Of a DNA stretch of 64,000 nucleotides, positions 2,759 through 9,759 are shown piece by piece; the stretch's first letter is position 1; each line of letters starts with the position of its first letter. The translations under genes and the position numbers were made by a program. Source of the DNA: Erysipelothrix anatis (GTDB lineage Bacteria > Bacillota_I > Bacilli_A > Erysipelotrichales > Erysipelotrichaceae); NCBI RefSeq assembly GCF_009828745.1, contig NZ_WTSX01000007.1, positions 62,001 through 126,000 on the forward strand, read 5' to 3'. The notes under the pieces are model-generated. The model had not been told where the DNA came from, searched no databases, and saw nothing but the letters and a program-made list of their open reading frames with translations.

Positions 2759-4849
<2,091 letters not shown>

Positions 4850-4850
4850 T

Positions 4851-4878
4851 AAAAAAAGGACCTCAGGGTCCTTTTTAT
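4851..4878. terminator. Bidirectional intrinsic terminator
   Basis: AGGACC-TCAG-GGTCCT hairpin flanked by an A run and a T run lies between the convergent surface protein and RCK genes. Confidence 0.85.
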
Positions 4879-5537
4879 TTTGAGAACAAATCATTCAGGA
4901 CAAATTGTCCTTTTTCATTGGTAAGGGCGATCACCGTATCATTCGGTTTAAGCTCAACACTACCGTTTATTACAATTGCTTCGTCTTCGCGAATTAAAGT
5001 AATTAATACTGTATCTTCAGGTAATTCTAAATCCTTAATCATTTTATTGGCAGCTTGTGATCCTTCTTGAATCCCCATCTGAACAATAGAATTTTTTCCT
5101 TTATTGATTTTAAGAAGCGTCGAAAGACTCTTCATATCAATTTCGTCCATAACGATACGTGATACTAAGTCTGCCTGATTAACCGCAACATCCACACCCA
5201 TTGATTGATTAAACAACCATGTATTTCGAGGATTATTGACGCGAGCAATGACACGTTTAGTCCCATACTCATATTTTGCAATCGTTGCGACAACAAGATT
5301 GACCTGGTCTTCTCCTGTGACCGCAACAACGACATCTGCTTGATGTATCCCCGCACGTTCGAGTGTGTCAGGATCACTACCCGTTCCACGCACAAGCATG
5401 TCTTCAGTAAAATCGTGTTTAATTTTTTCTAATGGTTTTTCCCGATTCTCAATAATTGATACTTCATAGTTATTTTGTAAGAGTAATTTTGCAACATATG
5501 ACCCTACTTGGCCACCACCGATAATTATCGCTTTCAT
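4875..5537 (-). CDS. TrkA/KtrA-type RCK domain protein (second of pair)
   Basis: 220 residues, the normal length of a single RCK protein. Residues 1-135 are a TrkA-N Rossmann domain with GGGQVG near the N-terminus and an acidic residue at the end of strand 2 (IIENR), as needed for NAD(H) or ATP binding. Residues 140-220 are a TrkA-C domain. Such proteins gate K+ channels of the Trk/Ktr type from the cytoplasm. No TrkH/KtrB channel is nearby; the gene lies 11 bases downstream of another RCK gene and in the same operon as a P-type ATPase. The partner may be encoded elsewhere, or the pump itself may be the target (inference). Confidence 0.88.
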   Translation of the reverse strand: MKAIIIGGGQVGSYVAKLLLQNNYEVSIIENREKPLEKIKHDFTEDMLVRGTGSDPDTLERAGIHQADVVVAVTGEDQVNLVVATIAKYEYGTKRVIARVNNPRNTWLFNQSMGVDVAVNQADLVSRIVMDEIDMKSLSTLLKINKGKNSIVQMGIQEGSQAANKMIKDLELPEDTVLITLIREDEAIVINGSVELKPNDTVIALTNEKGQFVLNDLFSK

Positions 5538-5548
5538 CGTCTGTCCCC

Positions 5549-6196
5549 CTAAAGACCGAGGACACTTTTAAGTGTGTCTAGGTCATTATTTTGAACTGCT
5601 ACATAGAGTTCATCGTTTGCTTCAAGTACTGCACCACGTTCCGGTATAAATGCATTGTTGTTACGGAGTACGCTAACAACTTGTACGCCTAAATTGTTGA
5701 CAGTGTCAATATTTTTTCCAATCAGCAACGGAGTGACTCTTAATTTTATAATTTCAACATCACTATTACCAATTGTTGCAATACTATCCATATCAGTTTT
5801 TGTTAACAATTTAACAACACGTCGTGTCCCCCATTCCGTAGTCGAAATGGTTTGAACACCGAGCATCGCATAGATCACAGCATTTTTAGTGTTATACTGA
5901 CGTGCTATGACTTTTGGTACCGAATAAAGATTCCGAGCAATGCGACCAATTAATGCATTGGTTTCATCACTATCCGTGCATGAGACTACAGCATCTGCAT
6001 GACTAATGTCTGCATTTTCAAGAACTTCTTTGTCAAAGCCAACACCTGACATATACGTAACGTTGTTGTACTTGGGTAAGCGATTTAAAACATCCGTATT
6101 CGTATCAATAGCTACGATATCATTGTTGTCTTGACTTAATGTGTGGATTAGCTCAGTTCCCATACGTCCACATCCAATTATAATAATTTTCATCAT
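5549..6196 (-). CDS. TrkA/KtrA-type RCK domain protein (first of pair)
   Basis: 215 residues. The ATG at 6196 is preferred over the TTG at 6199 because AAGGA, inside the end of the ATPase gene, then lies six bases away. It has a TrkA-N domain with GCGRMG and the acidic VAIDTN motif, and a TrkA-C domain (about 140-215). It is only distantly similar to the following RCK protein, suggesting two different subunits rather than a recent duplication. The ATPase stop codon is three bases upstream, so translation is probably coupled. Likely a cytoplasmic nucleotide-binding regulator of monovalent cation transport. Confidence 0.88.
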   Translation of the reverse strand: MMKIIIIGCGRMGTELIHTLSQDNNDIVAIDTNTDVLNRLPKYNNVTYMSGVGFDKEVLENADISHADAVVSCTDSDETNALIGRIARNLYSVPKVIARQYNTKNAVIYAMLGVQTISTTEWGTRRVVKLLTKTDMDSIATIGNSDVEIIKLRVTPLLIGKNIDTVNNLGVQVVSVLRNNNAFIPERGAVLEANDELYVAVQNNDLDTLKSVLGL

Positions 6197-6199
6197 CAA

Positions 6200-8995
6200 T
6201 TATCCTTTCACGATGTTATTGCGAATATATTTTTTACGTAATTCATCCAATAAAATAGCAGGAATTGGAACAAGGATTAAGATCATCCATTCCATCCAAC
6301 CCAAAGGCGCAGTATCAAAGATATTTTGTAATGCTGGTATGTACATTAACGATGCAATCAAGATTATTTCAACAGCGATACCAATTAGAACTTTGCTATT
6401 GGTAAAGATACCGCGTTTGAAGATTGATTGATTTTCTGTACGACAGTTGAGTACCATTCCAATTTGACCAAAGACAATCATTGCAAGTGCCATTGTGGTT
6501 GCTTGGCGGTACACATTGCCATTTGCAAGTAAACTTGTTTGTGGCCAGTTGCTGTGCATAAAGTAAATAAAGAAGTAACCAAACATTGCAAAGGCTGAAA
6601 GGATGAGACCGTACCAGAAGAATGCGATAATGAAGGTCTTTTTGTTTAAGAGAGCTTCACCACGTTTACGTGGCGGTTTGTTCATAATACCTTCTTCCGG
6701 TTGTTCGGTTCCAAGTCCAAGTGCTGGTAGCATATCGGTTCCAAGGTCAATTGCAAGAATTTGCATGATTGTAAGTGGCAATGGAATTGCACCACGTGAT
6801 AATAGAAACGCAACTGAAGGAATGGCTTCTGCCATGTTACTGTTAAGAATATAGGTTAAGAATTTACGGATATTACTATAGACCGCACGACCTTCTTCAA
6901 CTGCTTTAACGATTGATGCGAAGTTATCGTCGGTTAAGATGACATCGGCTGCTTCTTTCGCAACATCGGTACCGGTAATTCCCATGGCAACGCCAATATC
7001 TGCTTTTTTAAGTGCTGGAGCGTCGTTGACACCATCACCCGTTACCGCGACAATGTGACCTAATTCTTGTAAAGTTGCAACAACGCGATATTTTTGTTCA
7101 GGTGCTACACGAGCGAAGATGACTTCATCTTCTAATGCGCGTTTGAGCTCATCATCTGATAACTTATAAAGTTCAGATCCAGTAATAACACGTGGGTGTT
7201 CTGTTTTAACAATGCCGATTTTCTTAGCAATACTTTCAGCAGTAAGTCCATAGTCTCCTGTAATCATTATAATACGAATACTTGCATCATGACAGATTTT
7301 TACGGCATCACTAACTTCGGGACGTGCTGGATCTGACATAACGACAAGTCCTAAGAATGTAAGATCATCTTCAATAATCTCAGGTGTATATTGACTCATC
7401 GTGTTGGGAAGAGATGTTTCATGATCTAAAGCACGATAAGCGACTGCTAAAACACGCAATCCATTTCGAGCATACATATCATTTGCTTCCATTGCTTCAT
7501 CAAAGAACCCTGATTCCATTGCCACACGTTCGCCATTACGCTCTACGTGGCTTGAGATTTCAAGAATTTCACGAGGTGCTCCTTTTACAAAAGCAATGCG
7601 TTGATCACCATGAATTTTGTAGGAATAATCATGAATCGTCGTCATTCGTTTACGGGTTGAATCAAAAGGAAGTTCACGAAGGCGTAAAGCCTCTGTGGTT
7701 AAGGAATCAAGATTAATGCCACCCTTTTGTGCCACAACACCCAAACATGCTTCTGTTGGGTCACCTAAGACGGTATAACGATCATTGTCTTCATTCGGAG
7801 CGACTACTTTCGCATTACTACACAATGCAGCAGCACGAAGGATTGTTTGAAGGTTTGCATGGTCATACACTTTAATTGCTTCACCATCGAGTGTAATCTG
7901 ACCTTCAGGCGCATATCCTAAACCACTGACATCATATTCATGATCTAGTGTCCAGACATTGCTGACAGTCATTTCATTTTGGGTTAATGTTCCCGTTTTA
8001 TCAGAACAGATAACTGAGGTCGAACCCAGTGTCTCTACAGCTGATAATTTTTTAACTAATGCGTTCTCTTTAGCCATTCGTTTAACAGCGATTGCTAAAG
8101 AAAGTGTCACTGTAGGTAAAAGTCCTTCTGGAATAAATGCAACAATCATTCCTAATGCAAAGATAAATGATTTCGCAAGTGTTTCCTGTACAAAGAATAC
8201 CGAGATGATGAAGAAGAGAATCCCAATGGATGTTGCGATTATTGAGATTTGTTTGGTAAGAACATCCAGTTCTTGTTGGAGTGGACTTTTTTCTTCTTTC
8301 ATATTTTGGGTAAGATCCGCAATTTTTCCAAATTCCGTATTCATCCCCGTTGCATAAACGATTGCTTTTCCTGTTCCGCTTGAAACTGAAGTTCCAGCGA
8401 AAATTAAGTTGCGAATTTCAAATCGTGATAAATCATCACCTAAAACAGCGTCTGCATTCCGACGAACAGGATTCGATTCACCGGTTAAGGTTGATTGATC
8501 GACATTCAAATCACTGCATTCAACAAGACGCGCATCAACGGAGATACGATCGCCTTCTGCAATAATTAAAATATCACCCACAACTAATTCTTCAGTAAGA
8601 ATTTGTTGTTCTTCACCATCACGTACGACACGCGCAAATGAAGGCAACATTTTTTTCAATGCATCCGTAGCTTTCCCTGCTTGGAATTCTTGCCAGAAAC
8701 CAAAGACACCATTGATGACATTGACGAGCCAAATTGAAATACCCAGTTGTGGCATATCAGCAAAGATTGCGATTCCCCCACTGAACCATAACAAAATAGC
8801 CATCAAGCTGGAAAAGTGATGTAGAAATTTCTTCCACGTTGGTTCCCCTTTCACTTCTCTTAGCACATTTTTTCCGTATTCGTGTTGACGTTTTTTTACT
8901 TCATCAGTACTTAATCCATTACGATCAACATCAAGATGTTCGTAGACATCTTGTGGCGTAACTTTGTAGACTGAGTCATTGTCATATTTCTTCAT
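6200..8995 (-). CDS. Na+,K+-ATPase-like P-type cation pump (P2 class)
   Basis: 931 residues with cation-ATPase N-terminal, actuator (LTGES at 170-174), phosphorylation (D332 in DKTGTLT), nucleotide-binding and C-terminal membrane domains. Around the ion sites it resembles animal Na+,K+-ATPase: PEGLL in helix 4 (E290), NSNMAE in helix 5 (S719, N720, E723) and IDLGTD in helix 6 (D750, D754). These match E327, S775/N776/E779 and D804/D808 of the sodium pump. The stretch around VETLGSTSVICSDKTGTLTQ is also sodium-pump-like. Na+ export, perhaps with K+ uptake, is the likely activity, though Ca2+ cannot be excluded. It leads an operon with two RCK proteins. Confidence 0.92.
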   Translation of the reverse strand: MKKYDNDSVYKVTPQDVYEHLDVDRNGLSTDEVKKRQHEYGKNVLREVKGEPTWKKFLHHFSSLMAILLWFSGGIAIFADMPQLGISIWLVNVINGVFGFWQEFQAGKATDALKKMLPSFARVVRDGEEQQILTEELVVGDILIIAEGDRISVDARLVECSDLNVDQSTLTGESNPVRRNADAVLGDDLSRFEIRNLIFAGTSVSSGTGKAIVYATGMNTEFGKIADLTQNMKEEKSPLQQELDVLTKQISIIATSIGILFFIISVFFVQETLAKSFIFALGMIVAFIPEGLLPTVTLSLAIAVKRMAKENALVKKLSAVETLGSTSVICSDKTGTLTQNEMTVSNVWTLDHEYDVSGLGYAPEGQITLDGEAIKVYDHANLQTILRAAALCSNAKVVAPNEDNDRYTVLGDPTEACLGVVAQKGGINLDSLTTEALRLRELPFDSTRKRMTTIHDYSYKIHGDQRIAFVKGAPREILEISSHVERNGERVAMESGFFDEAMEANDMYARNGLRVLAVAYRALDHETSLPNTMSQYTPEIIEDDLTFLGLVVMSDPARPEVSDAVKICHDASIRIIMITGDYGLTAESIAKKIGIVKTEHPRVITGSELYKLSDDELKRALEDEVIFARVAPEQKYRVVATLQELGHIVAVTGDGVNDAPALKKADIGVAMGITGTDVAKEAADVILTDDNFASIVKAVEEGRAVYSNIRKFLTYILNSNMAEAIPSVAFLLSRGAIPLPLTIMQILAIDLGTDMLPALGLGTEQPEEGIMNKPPRKRGEALLNKKTFIIAFFWYGLILSAFAMFGYFFIYFMHSNWPQTSLLANGNVYRQATTMALAMIVFGQIGMVLNCRTENQSIFKRGIFTNSKVLIGIAVEIILIASLMYIPALQNIFDTAPLGWMEWMILILVPIPAILLDELRKKYIRNNIVKG

Positions 8996-9026
8996 TTTAT
9001 TCCCCTTCTTTTCAAAAGATAAAAGT

Positions 9027-9061
9027 ATTCTAACACCACCGGTATTAAGACGGTATTAAGA
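9027..9061 (-). promoter_or_regulatory. ATPase operon promoter with 11-bp tandem repeat
   Basis: On the minus strand two perfect copies of TCTTAATACCG (9061-9051 and 9050-9040) lie just upstream of a -10-like TAGAAT (9032-9027). There is no consensus -35; the repeats occupy that position. An 11-bp direct repeat on one helix face is typical of OmpR/PhoB-family activator sites. The regulator is unknown. Confidence 0.5.
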
Positions 9062-9126: not shown

Positions 9127-9759
9127 TTATTTAGAAACGACAGAAATACGTTCTTGAATATGTTGTGCATGCTCGATTTCATCAACCATTGCAATGGCAT
9201 AATCAGCATAACTAATCGTACTTTCGCCTTTACTATTCAATGTTAGCATTTCGCCGGCTAGAGTATAGGATCCAGTTCGTTCACCATCGGCTCTAAAATC
9301 CGCAGCCGGTGAGATGTATGTCCATTTTACATCACTTCTCATTCGAAGTTGTTTGAGTGCTTCTCCCATATTCGATGCCATAGGTAGATATGCCACCGGA
9401 AATCCTTCTGTATCCATTAATTGAGTTGTTAATTCCTCATCCGCATAAAGACTTCCCGCACCGCCAACAACTAAAAGACGTGTTGGTGTTGTGGCTATGA
9501 GATTTGCGATGTGATTAAGTGATGTAACATGCACGCTTTGATCGTCTCCAAAGAAACCGAATGCATCAACAACACTATCATACCCTTCCAAATCTTCTGG
9601 TTTTAAATCAAACAAGTCGCTTTCAAATACGAATGCTTTATTATTTTTGACTTTACTTGCATTTCGGACGAATGCTGTAACTTCATGTCCGCGGGCAATT
9701 GCCTCATCAACAATCAAACTTCCTGCTTTTCCACTTGCGCCAATTACTGCTATTTTCAT
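9127..9759 (-). CDS. NAD(P)-binding protein, NmrA/atypical SDR type (YwnB-like)
   Basis: 210 residues. A Rossmann fold starts with GASGKAG (residues 7-13), and the next strand carries VRNASK, suited to NADP(H) phosphate binding. There is no SDR YxxxK catalytic motif, as is usual for NmrA-like redox sensors or quinone-oxidoreductase-like proteins of this size. It is divergent from an Rrf2 regulator over a shared operator, the arrangement I recall for ywnB/ywnA of Bacillus subtilis. A redox or electrophile stress role is inferred from that context. Confidence 0.82.
   Translation of the reverse strand: MKIAVIGASGKAGSLIVDEAIARGHEVTAFVRNASKVKNNKAFVFESDLFDLKPEDLEGYDSVVDAFGFFGDDQSVHVTSLNHIANLIATTPTRLLVVGGAGSLYADEELTTQLMDTEGFPVAYLPMASNMGEALKQLRMRSDVKWTYISPAADFRADGERTGSYTLAGEMLTLNSKGESTISYADYAIAMVDEIEHAQHIQERISVVSK

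Follow-up and report, generated by a model that had tools for sequence, protein, structure and literature searches.

A Na+,K+-ATPase-like P-type ATPase encoded with a split TrkA: a probable nucleotide-controlled K+ pump of bacteria

The window (the whole stretch of Erysipelothrix anatis DNA that was analysed, 64,000 nucleotides) contains a gene for a P2-type cation ATPase followed by two genes, RCK-A and RCK-B, whose products correspond by sequence to the two halves of TrkA. The near-constant pairing of this ATPase with the RCK genes, together with the retention of the trio in several small genomes in which no known K+ importer was recognised, suggests that the three genes probably encode an undescribed, nucleotide-controlled K+ pump.

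RESULTS

Organisation of the locus

The features of the locus are collected in Table 1. The initial annotation, made from this DNA alone, had described a P-type ATPase gene followed by two genes for TrkA-type RCK proteins, and both the coordinates (8995-4875) and the Pfam domains confirmed that arrangement. An AAGGGG ribosome-binding site lies immediately 5′ of the ATG of the ATPase gene, and sequences resembling ribosome-binding sites precede all three genes. RCK-A starts with TTG-ATG-ATG immediately after the stop codon of the ATPase gene, and 11 bp separate RCK-A from RCK-B. The hairpin in Table 1 sits between the operon and the upstream gene for an NAD(P)-binding protein (9127-9759); given this hairpin and the ribosome-binding-site-like sequences, the three genes look like a single transcription unit. 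The direct repeat CTTAATACCG found upstream is a possible operator, although not one common to all the loci, since it is kept in the nearest relative (L036) only. No Rfam match to a riboswitch (e.g. for c-di-AMP) was found upstream of the trio or anywhere else in the window, and the same scan of 18 other loci returned only tRNAs and one TPP riboswitch located away from the trio. The product of the convergent gene at 2759-4849 is a surface protein; it combines List_Bact repeats and a long VDP repeat with a C-terminal, LPNTG-like sorting signal.

Table 1. Coordinates of the operon and its upstream elements in the window
Feature	Position	Strand	Basis
P2-type cation ATPase of 931 aa, encoded first in the operon	8995-6200	minus	Pfam E1-E2_ATPase, Cation_ATPase_N, Cation_ATPase_C
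RCK-A, 216 aa, TrkA_N + TrkA_C, first half of TrkA	6199-5549	minus	Pfam, profile match, tree
RCK-B, 220 aa, TrkA_N + TrkA_C, second half of TrkA	5537-4875	minus	Pfam, profile match, tree
Terminator-like hairpin, 14-pair stem and T-rich tail	9115-9085	minus	sequence
Putative promoter and leader of the operon	8999-9060	minus	read from sequence
Direct repeat CTTAATACCG, two copies 11 bp apart	9060-9051 and 9049-9040	minus	read from sequence
TAGAAT in the putative promoter	~9032-9027	minus	read from sequence

The ATPase and the RCK genes are linked across three phyla

Both RCK genes were found 3′ of the ATPase gene in 53 genomes of Bacillota, Actinomycetota and Thermodesulfobacteriota. The search for co-occurrence that the initial annotation had proposed thus revealed a conserved linkage, and its persistence over three phyla rules out a chance adjacency. 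All ten ATPases of at least 57% identity in the order sample have both RCKs downstream, and the phylum sample (392 genomes) contributed fourteen more, so that every ortholog above 50% identity in these two samples (24/24) carries RCK-A and then RCK-B. A scan of named genomes found the trio in an Erysipelotrichaceae MAG, Bacillus marasmi, Collinsella tanakaei, a Lachnospiraceae MAG, a Clostridia MAG and Geomonas anaerohicana. In the Coriobacteriaceae (23 further genomes) every complete locus has both RCKs, while in a Nitriliruptoraceae locus the contig stops inside the first of them. The flanking genes vary by lineage and the trio alone is constant; no conserved gene for a fourth subunit (e.g. 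a beta subunit) was seen in the flanks of 19 loci. At one locus (L044:7877-10701, genome G059) the ATPase gene is divided into two ORFs, by a frameshift or an assembly error, and both RCK genes are intact.

ATPases of about 40% identity have no RCK beside them, and the same profile search, applied to the fetched loci of more distant P2 ATPases (some on short contigs), found RCKs in the flanks of none of 73. Seven orthologs from Lactobacillales (52-59% identity) also have no RCKs alongside, and two of these seven genomes have no convincing RCK gene anywhere; the RCKs are therefore not essential to every member of the clade.

On the ATPase tree, of which several inner branches are weak, the RCK linkage requires 3 changes, compared with a mean of 18.9 when the linkage is shuffled. 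This is consistent with a single ancient association of the ATPase with the RCKs, followed by a loss in Lactobacillales. The RCK-A orthologs form one clade (SH-aLRT 100), as do those of RCK-B (SH-aLRT 86), and both stand apart from the TrkA halves and from the KtrA clade (SH-aLRT 100 for the separation from KtrA). Several RCK subclades mirror subclades of the ATPase tree.

Other P2 ATPases showed distinct arrangements. The sister of the RCK-linked clade, from a member of the Brocadiaceae (L106:2152-5355), carries an in-frame N-terminal PTS EIIA_2 domain, and in a Nitratiruptor MAG (L144:1226-5146) a Na+/H+ exchanger domain is fused in frame at the N-terminus of the ATPase. Three small-genome relatives (genus g140; L087, L088 and L091) encode a different P2 ATPase, with the motifs PEGLLP, SNIPQ and IDLLTD, Gln in place of the M5 glutamate and no RCK alongside; no TrkH match is listed in these genomes.

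Cation sites and the link to K+

The phosphorylation site, D332, lies in the motif DKTGT and is invariant among 16 orthologs. The residues E290, S719, N720, E723, D750 and D754, which are the ligands of cation sites I and II in M4-M6, are all present and equally invariant in the 16 orthologs. In the alignment with animal and archaeal P2C Na+,K+-ATPases, the first four correspond to E327, S775, N776 and E779, and D750, D754, Q844 and E876 correspond to D804, D808, Q923 and E954. The earlier statement that the enzyme carries every major ion ligand of the Na+,K+-ATPase is thus correct as to the six residues, but four of them (E290, N720, E723 and D754) recur in nearly all the P2 ATPases compared, which makes the set weaker evidence than had been stated. 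Similarly, the term sodium-pump-like fits sites I and II but not the third Na+ site, in which Q844 and E876 are kept while the equivalent of D926 is M847, a position variable in the clade. Without a D926 equivalent, the stoichiometry of the Na+,K+-ATPase cannot be assumed.

No TrkH/KtrB was found within the window. The only one in the genome is a KtrB on another contig (C22:132795-133964, the window lying on C27), adjoined by a KtrA-like gene (C22:132360-132707); KdpA is encoded in the genome as well. The initial annotation had noted that no channel is present, which holds for the operon and the window but not for the genome as a whole. Since the genome carries KtrAB and KdpA, the pump would not be the sole K+ importer there.

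Most of the trio genomes have KtrB or TrkH, but six do not. These belong to one family (f8) and are 95-99% complete (G115, G192, G272, G273, G276 and G378). Searches for four families, TrkH/KtrB, Kup, KdpA and AA_permease_2 (the Pfam family that presumably includes KimA), gave no match in them, the lack of TrkH/KtrB in G378 being read by elimination from the list; an overlooked importer of another family, such as a channel, could exist in these genomes. Apart from the two next to the ATPase gene, they have no clear TrkA_N gene. In a seventh genome (G428), TrkH is matched only weakly (E 3.1e-5) and an internal stop interrupts an RCK fragment, which looks like the remains of a decaying Ktr system. 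Within the phylum sample, TrkH was missing from 6 of 17 trio genomes and from 34 of 375 others (Fisher p = 0.004, a value that ignores kinship, the six being of one family, and that we take as supporting evidence only). In B. marasmi, a KdpD-like and a KdpE-like gene lie directly upstream of the trio (L093:3537-5606). The best family for the histidine kinase is KdpD (261 bits; next, 158), although the N-terminal part of KdpD is missing, and that for the truncated response regulator, which consists of the receiver only, is KdpE (139 bits; next, 129). PtsN, a member of the PTS EIIA_2 family, regulates K+ transport. The TrkH-less genomes, the KdpDE-like pair and the EIIA_2 fusion of the sister ATPase are each circumstantial, but jointly they point to K+ as the ion concerned.

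These data bear on the strongest of the alternatives, in which the enzyme is mainly a Na+ exporter, i.e. a Na+-ATPase for which K+ or H+ is incidental, the RCK ring damps its activity in response to energy or redox state, and K+ homeostasis is affected indirectly. The likeness of its M4-M6 ligands to those of the Na+,K+-ATPase would suit such a role, as would a host genome already supplied with KtrAB and KdpA for K+. However, this explanation accounts neither for the six genomes without another known K+ importer nor for the KdpDE-like genes of B. marasmi, and no D926 equivalent is present at the third Na+ site; we therefore regard it as unlikely.

The RCK pair corresponds to a TrkA divided over two genes

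Both RCKs contain TrkA_N and TrkA_C domains above the Pfam cut-off. In profile comparisons, RCK-A matches TrkA best over residues 1-225 and RCK-B over residues 234-455; as judged from these matches, the pair is one TrkA divided over two genes, its two RCK units being encoded separately rather than on the single polypeptide typical of TrkA. Two RCK genes are indeed present, as had been annotated, but they are better described as a single split TrkA than as two different regulators. In four loci RCK-B lacks the C domain (134-143 aa).

In the structures of TrkH-TrkA, R100 of TrkA is required for the ATP-induced opening of TrkH (PMC6987127). With the roles of the TrkH-contact and nucleotide-site residues taken from the same study, 18 RCK-A and 18 RCK-B sequences were compared with three TrkAs. 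The position of R100, an Arg in all three TrkAs, is occupied by Tyr in 18/18 RCK-A and by Asn in 18/18 RCK-B. Among the TrkH-contact residues, D44 was found in none of the 18 RCK-A and E293 in one of the 18 RCK-B, both being kept in 3/3 TrkAs; D286 is mostly kept in the RCKs, and Q40 is variable even among the TrkAs. The nucleotide-site residues D76, N79 and R98 (the last with one Lys) are kept in the RCKs, as are the Rossmann glycine motif and the acidic residue after strand 2. As judged from sequence, the replacement of R100 and of TrkH-contact residues would fit an altered partner and an altered ligand.

RCK proteins normally gate TrkH/KtrB, and the window's genome has one KtrB; the RCK pair might then regulate KtrB/TrkH, or another K+ transporter, in trans, and merely be co-transcribed with an independent pump. 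This is quite improbable: the KtrB has its adjoining KtrA, the pair is retained in the six genomes without TrkH/KtrB, the residues for contact with TrkH are largely gone, and the linkage to the ATPase persists over three phyla. Because KtrB has its own KtrA, the RCKs of the operon are an additional set, and RCK-A and RCK-B were ruled out as its missing partners. The initial annotation had considered that a ktrB/trkH partner of the RCKs encoded elsewhere, together with a lack of interaction or conserved linkage between the pump and the RCK genes, would speak against a regulated pump, and the KtrB found here, with KtrA beside it, is not such a partner.

Class and fold of the ATPase

The DKTGT motif and the Cation_ATPase N and C domains, which score above the Pfam cut-off, place the enzyme among the P2-type ATPases. 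It falls below the NCBIfam cut-offs both for TIGR01106, the P2C Na+,K+-ATPases (629.5 bits; cut-off, 946.1), and for TIGR01522, the PMR1-type Ca2+-ATPases, which gives its top NCBIfam score (640.3 bits; cut-off, 798.3). By sequence, the nearest solved structures are animal Na,K-ATPases (E 7e-154), with LMCA1, SPCA and SERCA close after. D750 and its PEGLL context distinguish it from the Ca2+-type paralogs, which have Asn at the position of D750: the M6 motif is IDLGTD (I/V-D-L/I-G-T-D in the clade) as opposed to NLxTD in the paralogs, and PEGLL stands where these typically have PEGLP. The fold of the AlphaFold model (pLDDT 85) is that of an ordinary P2 ATPase and matches Na,K-ATPase, H,K-ATPase, LMCA1 and SERCA; the Z-scores for Na,K-ATPase and Ca2+-ATPase were tied and indicate the P2 fold only, so this comparison was dropped as a discriminator of ion type. 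The ATPases of family f8 (L075, L078, L079, L081, L083 and L084) have DGE (DGEA or DGEP) in the A domain and not the usual TGES. That the enzyme pumps Ca2+ or another divalent cation in the manner of PMR1 or LMCA1, with the RCKs as Ca2+- or nucleotide-sensing regulators, is very improbable, since against the top score of TIGR01522 and the presence of LMCA1 among the closest solved folds stand the shortfall of that score from its cut-off, the PEGLL and M6 aspartate motifs, the best sequence matches to Na,K-ATPases and the K+-linked genomic context.

DISCUSSION

The strict and ancient linkage, the co-diversification of the ATPase and the RCKs, the loss of TrkH-docking residues and the six genomes without TrkH/KtrB strongly support, at the level of sequence and gene context, a P-type pump regulated by RCK proteins. 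The proposal that such a pump would be a new K+/Na+ homeostasis module thus gains from comparative genomics, although its premise of a channel-less genome did not hold. We consider K+ import by the ATPase, at an activity set by a ring of RCK-A and RCK-B that binds a nucleotide or c-di-AMP, to be somewhat more likely than not. The P2 pump, with its Na+,K+-ATPase-like sites I and II, would import K+ at the expense of ATP, probably in exchange for Na+ or H+ moving outwards; RCK-A and RCK-B would assemble as a TrkA-like ring of Rossmann domains and dock on the cytoplasmic side of the pump, raising or lowering its activity with the nucleotide state of the cell, as signalled by NAD(H), adenine nucleotides or c-di-AMP. 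Of this scheme, the operon, the protein families, the conserved linkage, the residue changes, the split-TrkA origin and the lack of other known importers in six genomes come from the data; which way K+ moves, which ion is exchanged for it, how the ring meets the pump and what ligand it binds are inferred. The broader claim, that a Na+,K+-ATPase-like P2 pump gated by a split TrkA ring represents an undescribed class of K+ importer and provides the sole dedicated K+ uptake of some reduced-genome Bacilli, seems to us evenly balanced.

The components have counterparts in known systems. In Thermotoga maritima, TrkA is also spread over two genes (TM1088A/TM1088B, a close PDB sequence match), but there the N-terminal part is short, while here it is RCK-B that is sometimes short; the partner of TM1088A/TM1088B is a TrkH channel. 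Compared with TrkH-TrkA of Vibrio parahaemolyticus (PMC6987127), RCK-A and RCK-B align with the halves of TrkA and keep the equivalent of R98, but the partner gene encodes a P-type ATPase, there are two RCK genes, and R100 and most TrkH contacts are replaced. KdpFABC likewise includes a P-type ATPase that drives K+ uptake with ATP, as proposed here, and KdpDE-like regulators lie upstream of the trio in one relative; Kdp, however, is of the P1A class, has the channel-like KdpA and no RCK, and no KdpA-like subunit is encoded in the present operon. The P2C Na+,K+-ATPases differ in the D926 position, in the TIGR01106 score and in the RCK partners found here, for which no conserved extra subunit gene was seen. 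The nearest precedent is the trkB-trk-pacL locus of Streptococcus mutans, annotated as a K+ system, in which a P-type ATPase gene (SMU_1563) lies beside trk genes (PMC7082836, citing Binepal 2016); as far as the description of that locus goes, it differs in the presence of a trkB gene. S. mutans PacL was considered as the same system and set aside on the basis of Streptococcus ratti, which has two such ATPases, neither of them beside its TrkA. No prior description of an RCK-linked P-type pump was found in the literature searched, which is not the whole literature; as far as it shows, the components are known and the combination of this ATPase with a split TrkA is undescribed.

RCK domains are known to regulate K+ channels and certain secondary transporters. 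If the proposed reading is true, an RCK ring on a primary P-type pump would bring ATP-driven transport under the logic of nucleotide-gated K+ uptake; among the genomic hints, the strongest comes from the bacteria without any other recognisable K+ importer. Archaeal Na+,K+-ATPase-like pumps have been described as an open enigma in a 2023 review (PMC10654040). Prokaryotic pumps of this kind have no established function, and the trio family offers a testable bacterial case that, if the reading holds, would give a functional answer to their role.
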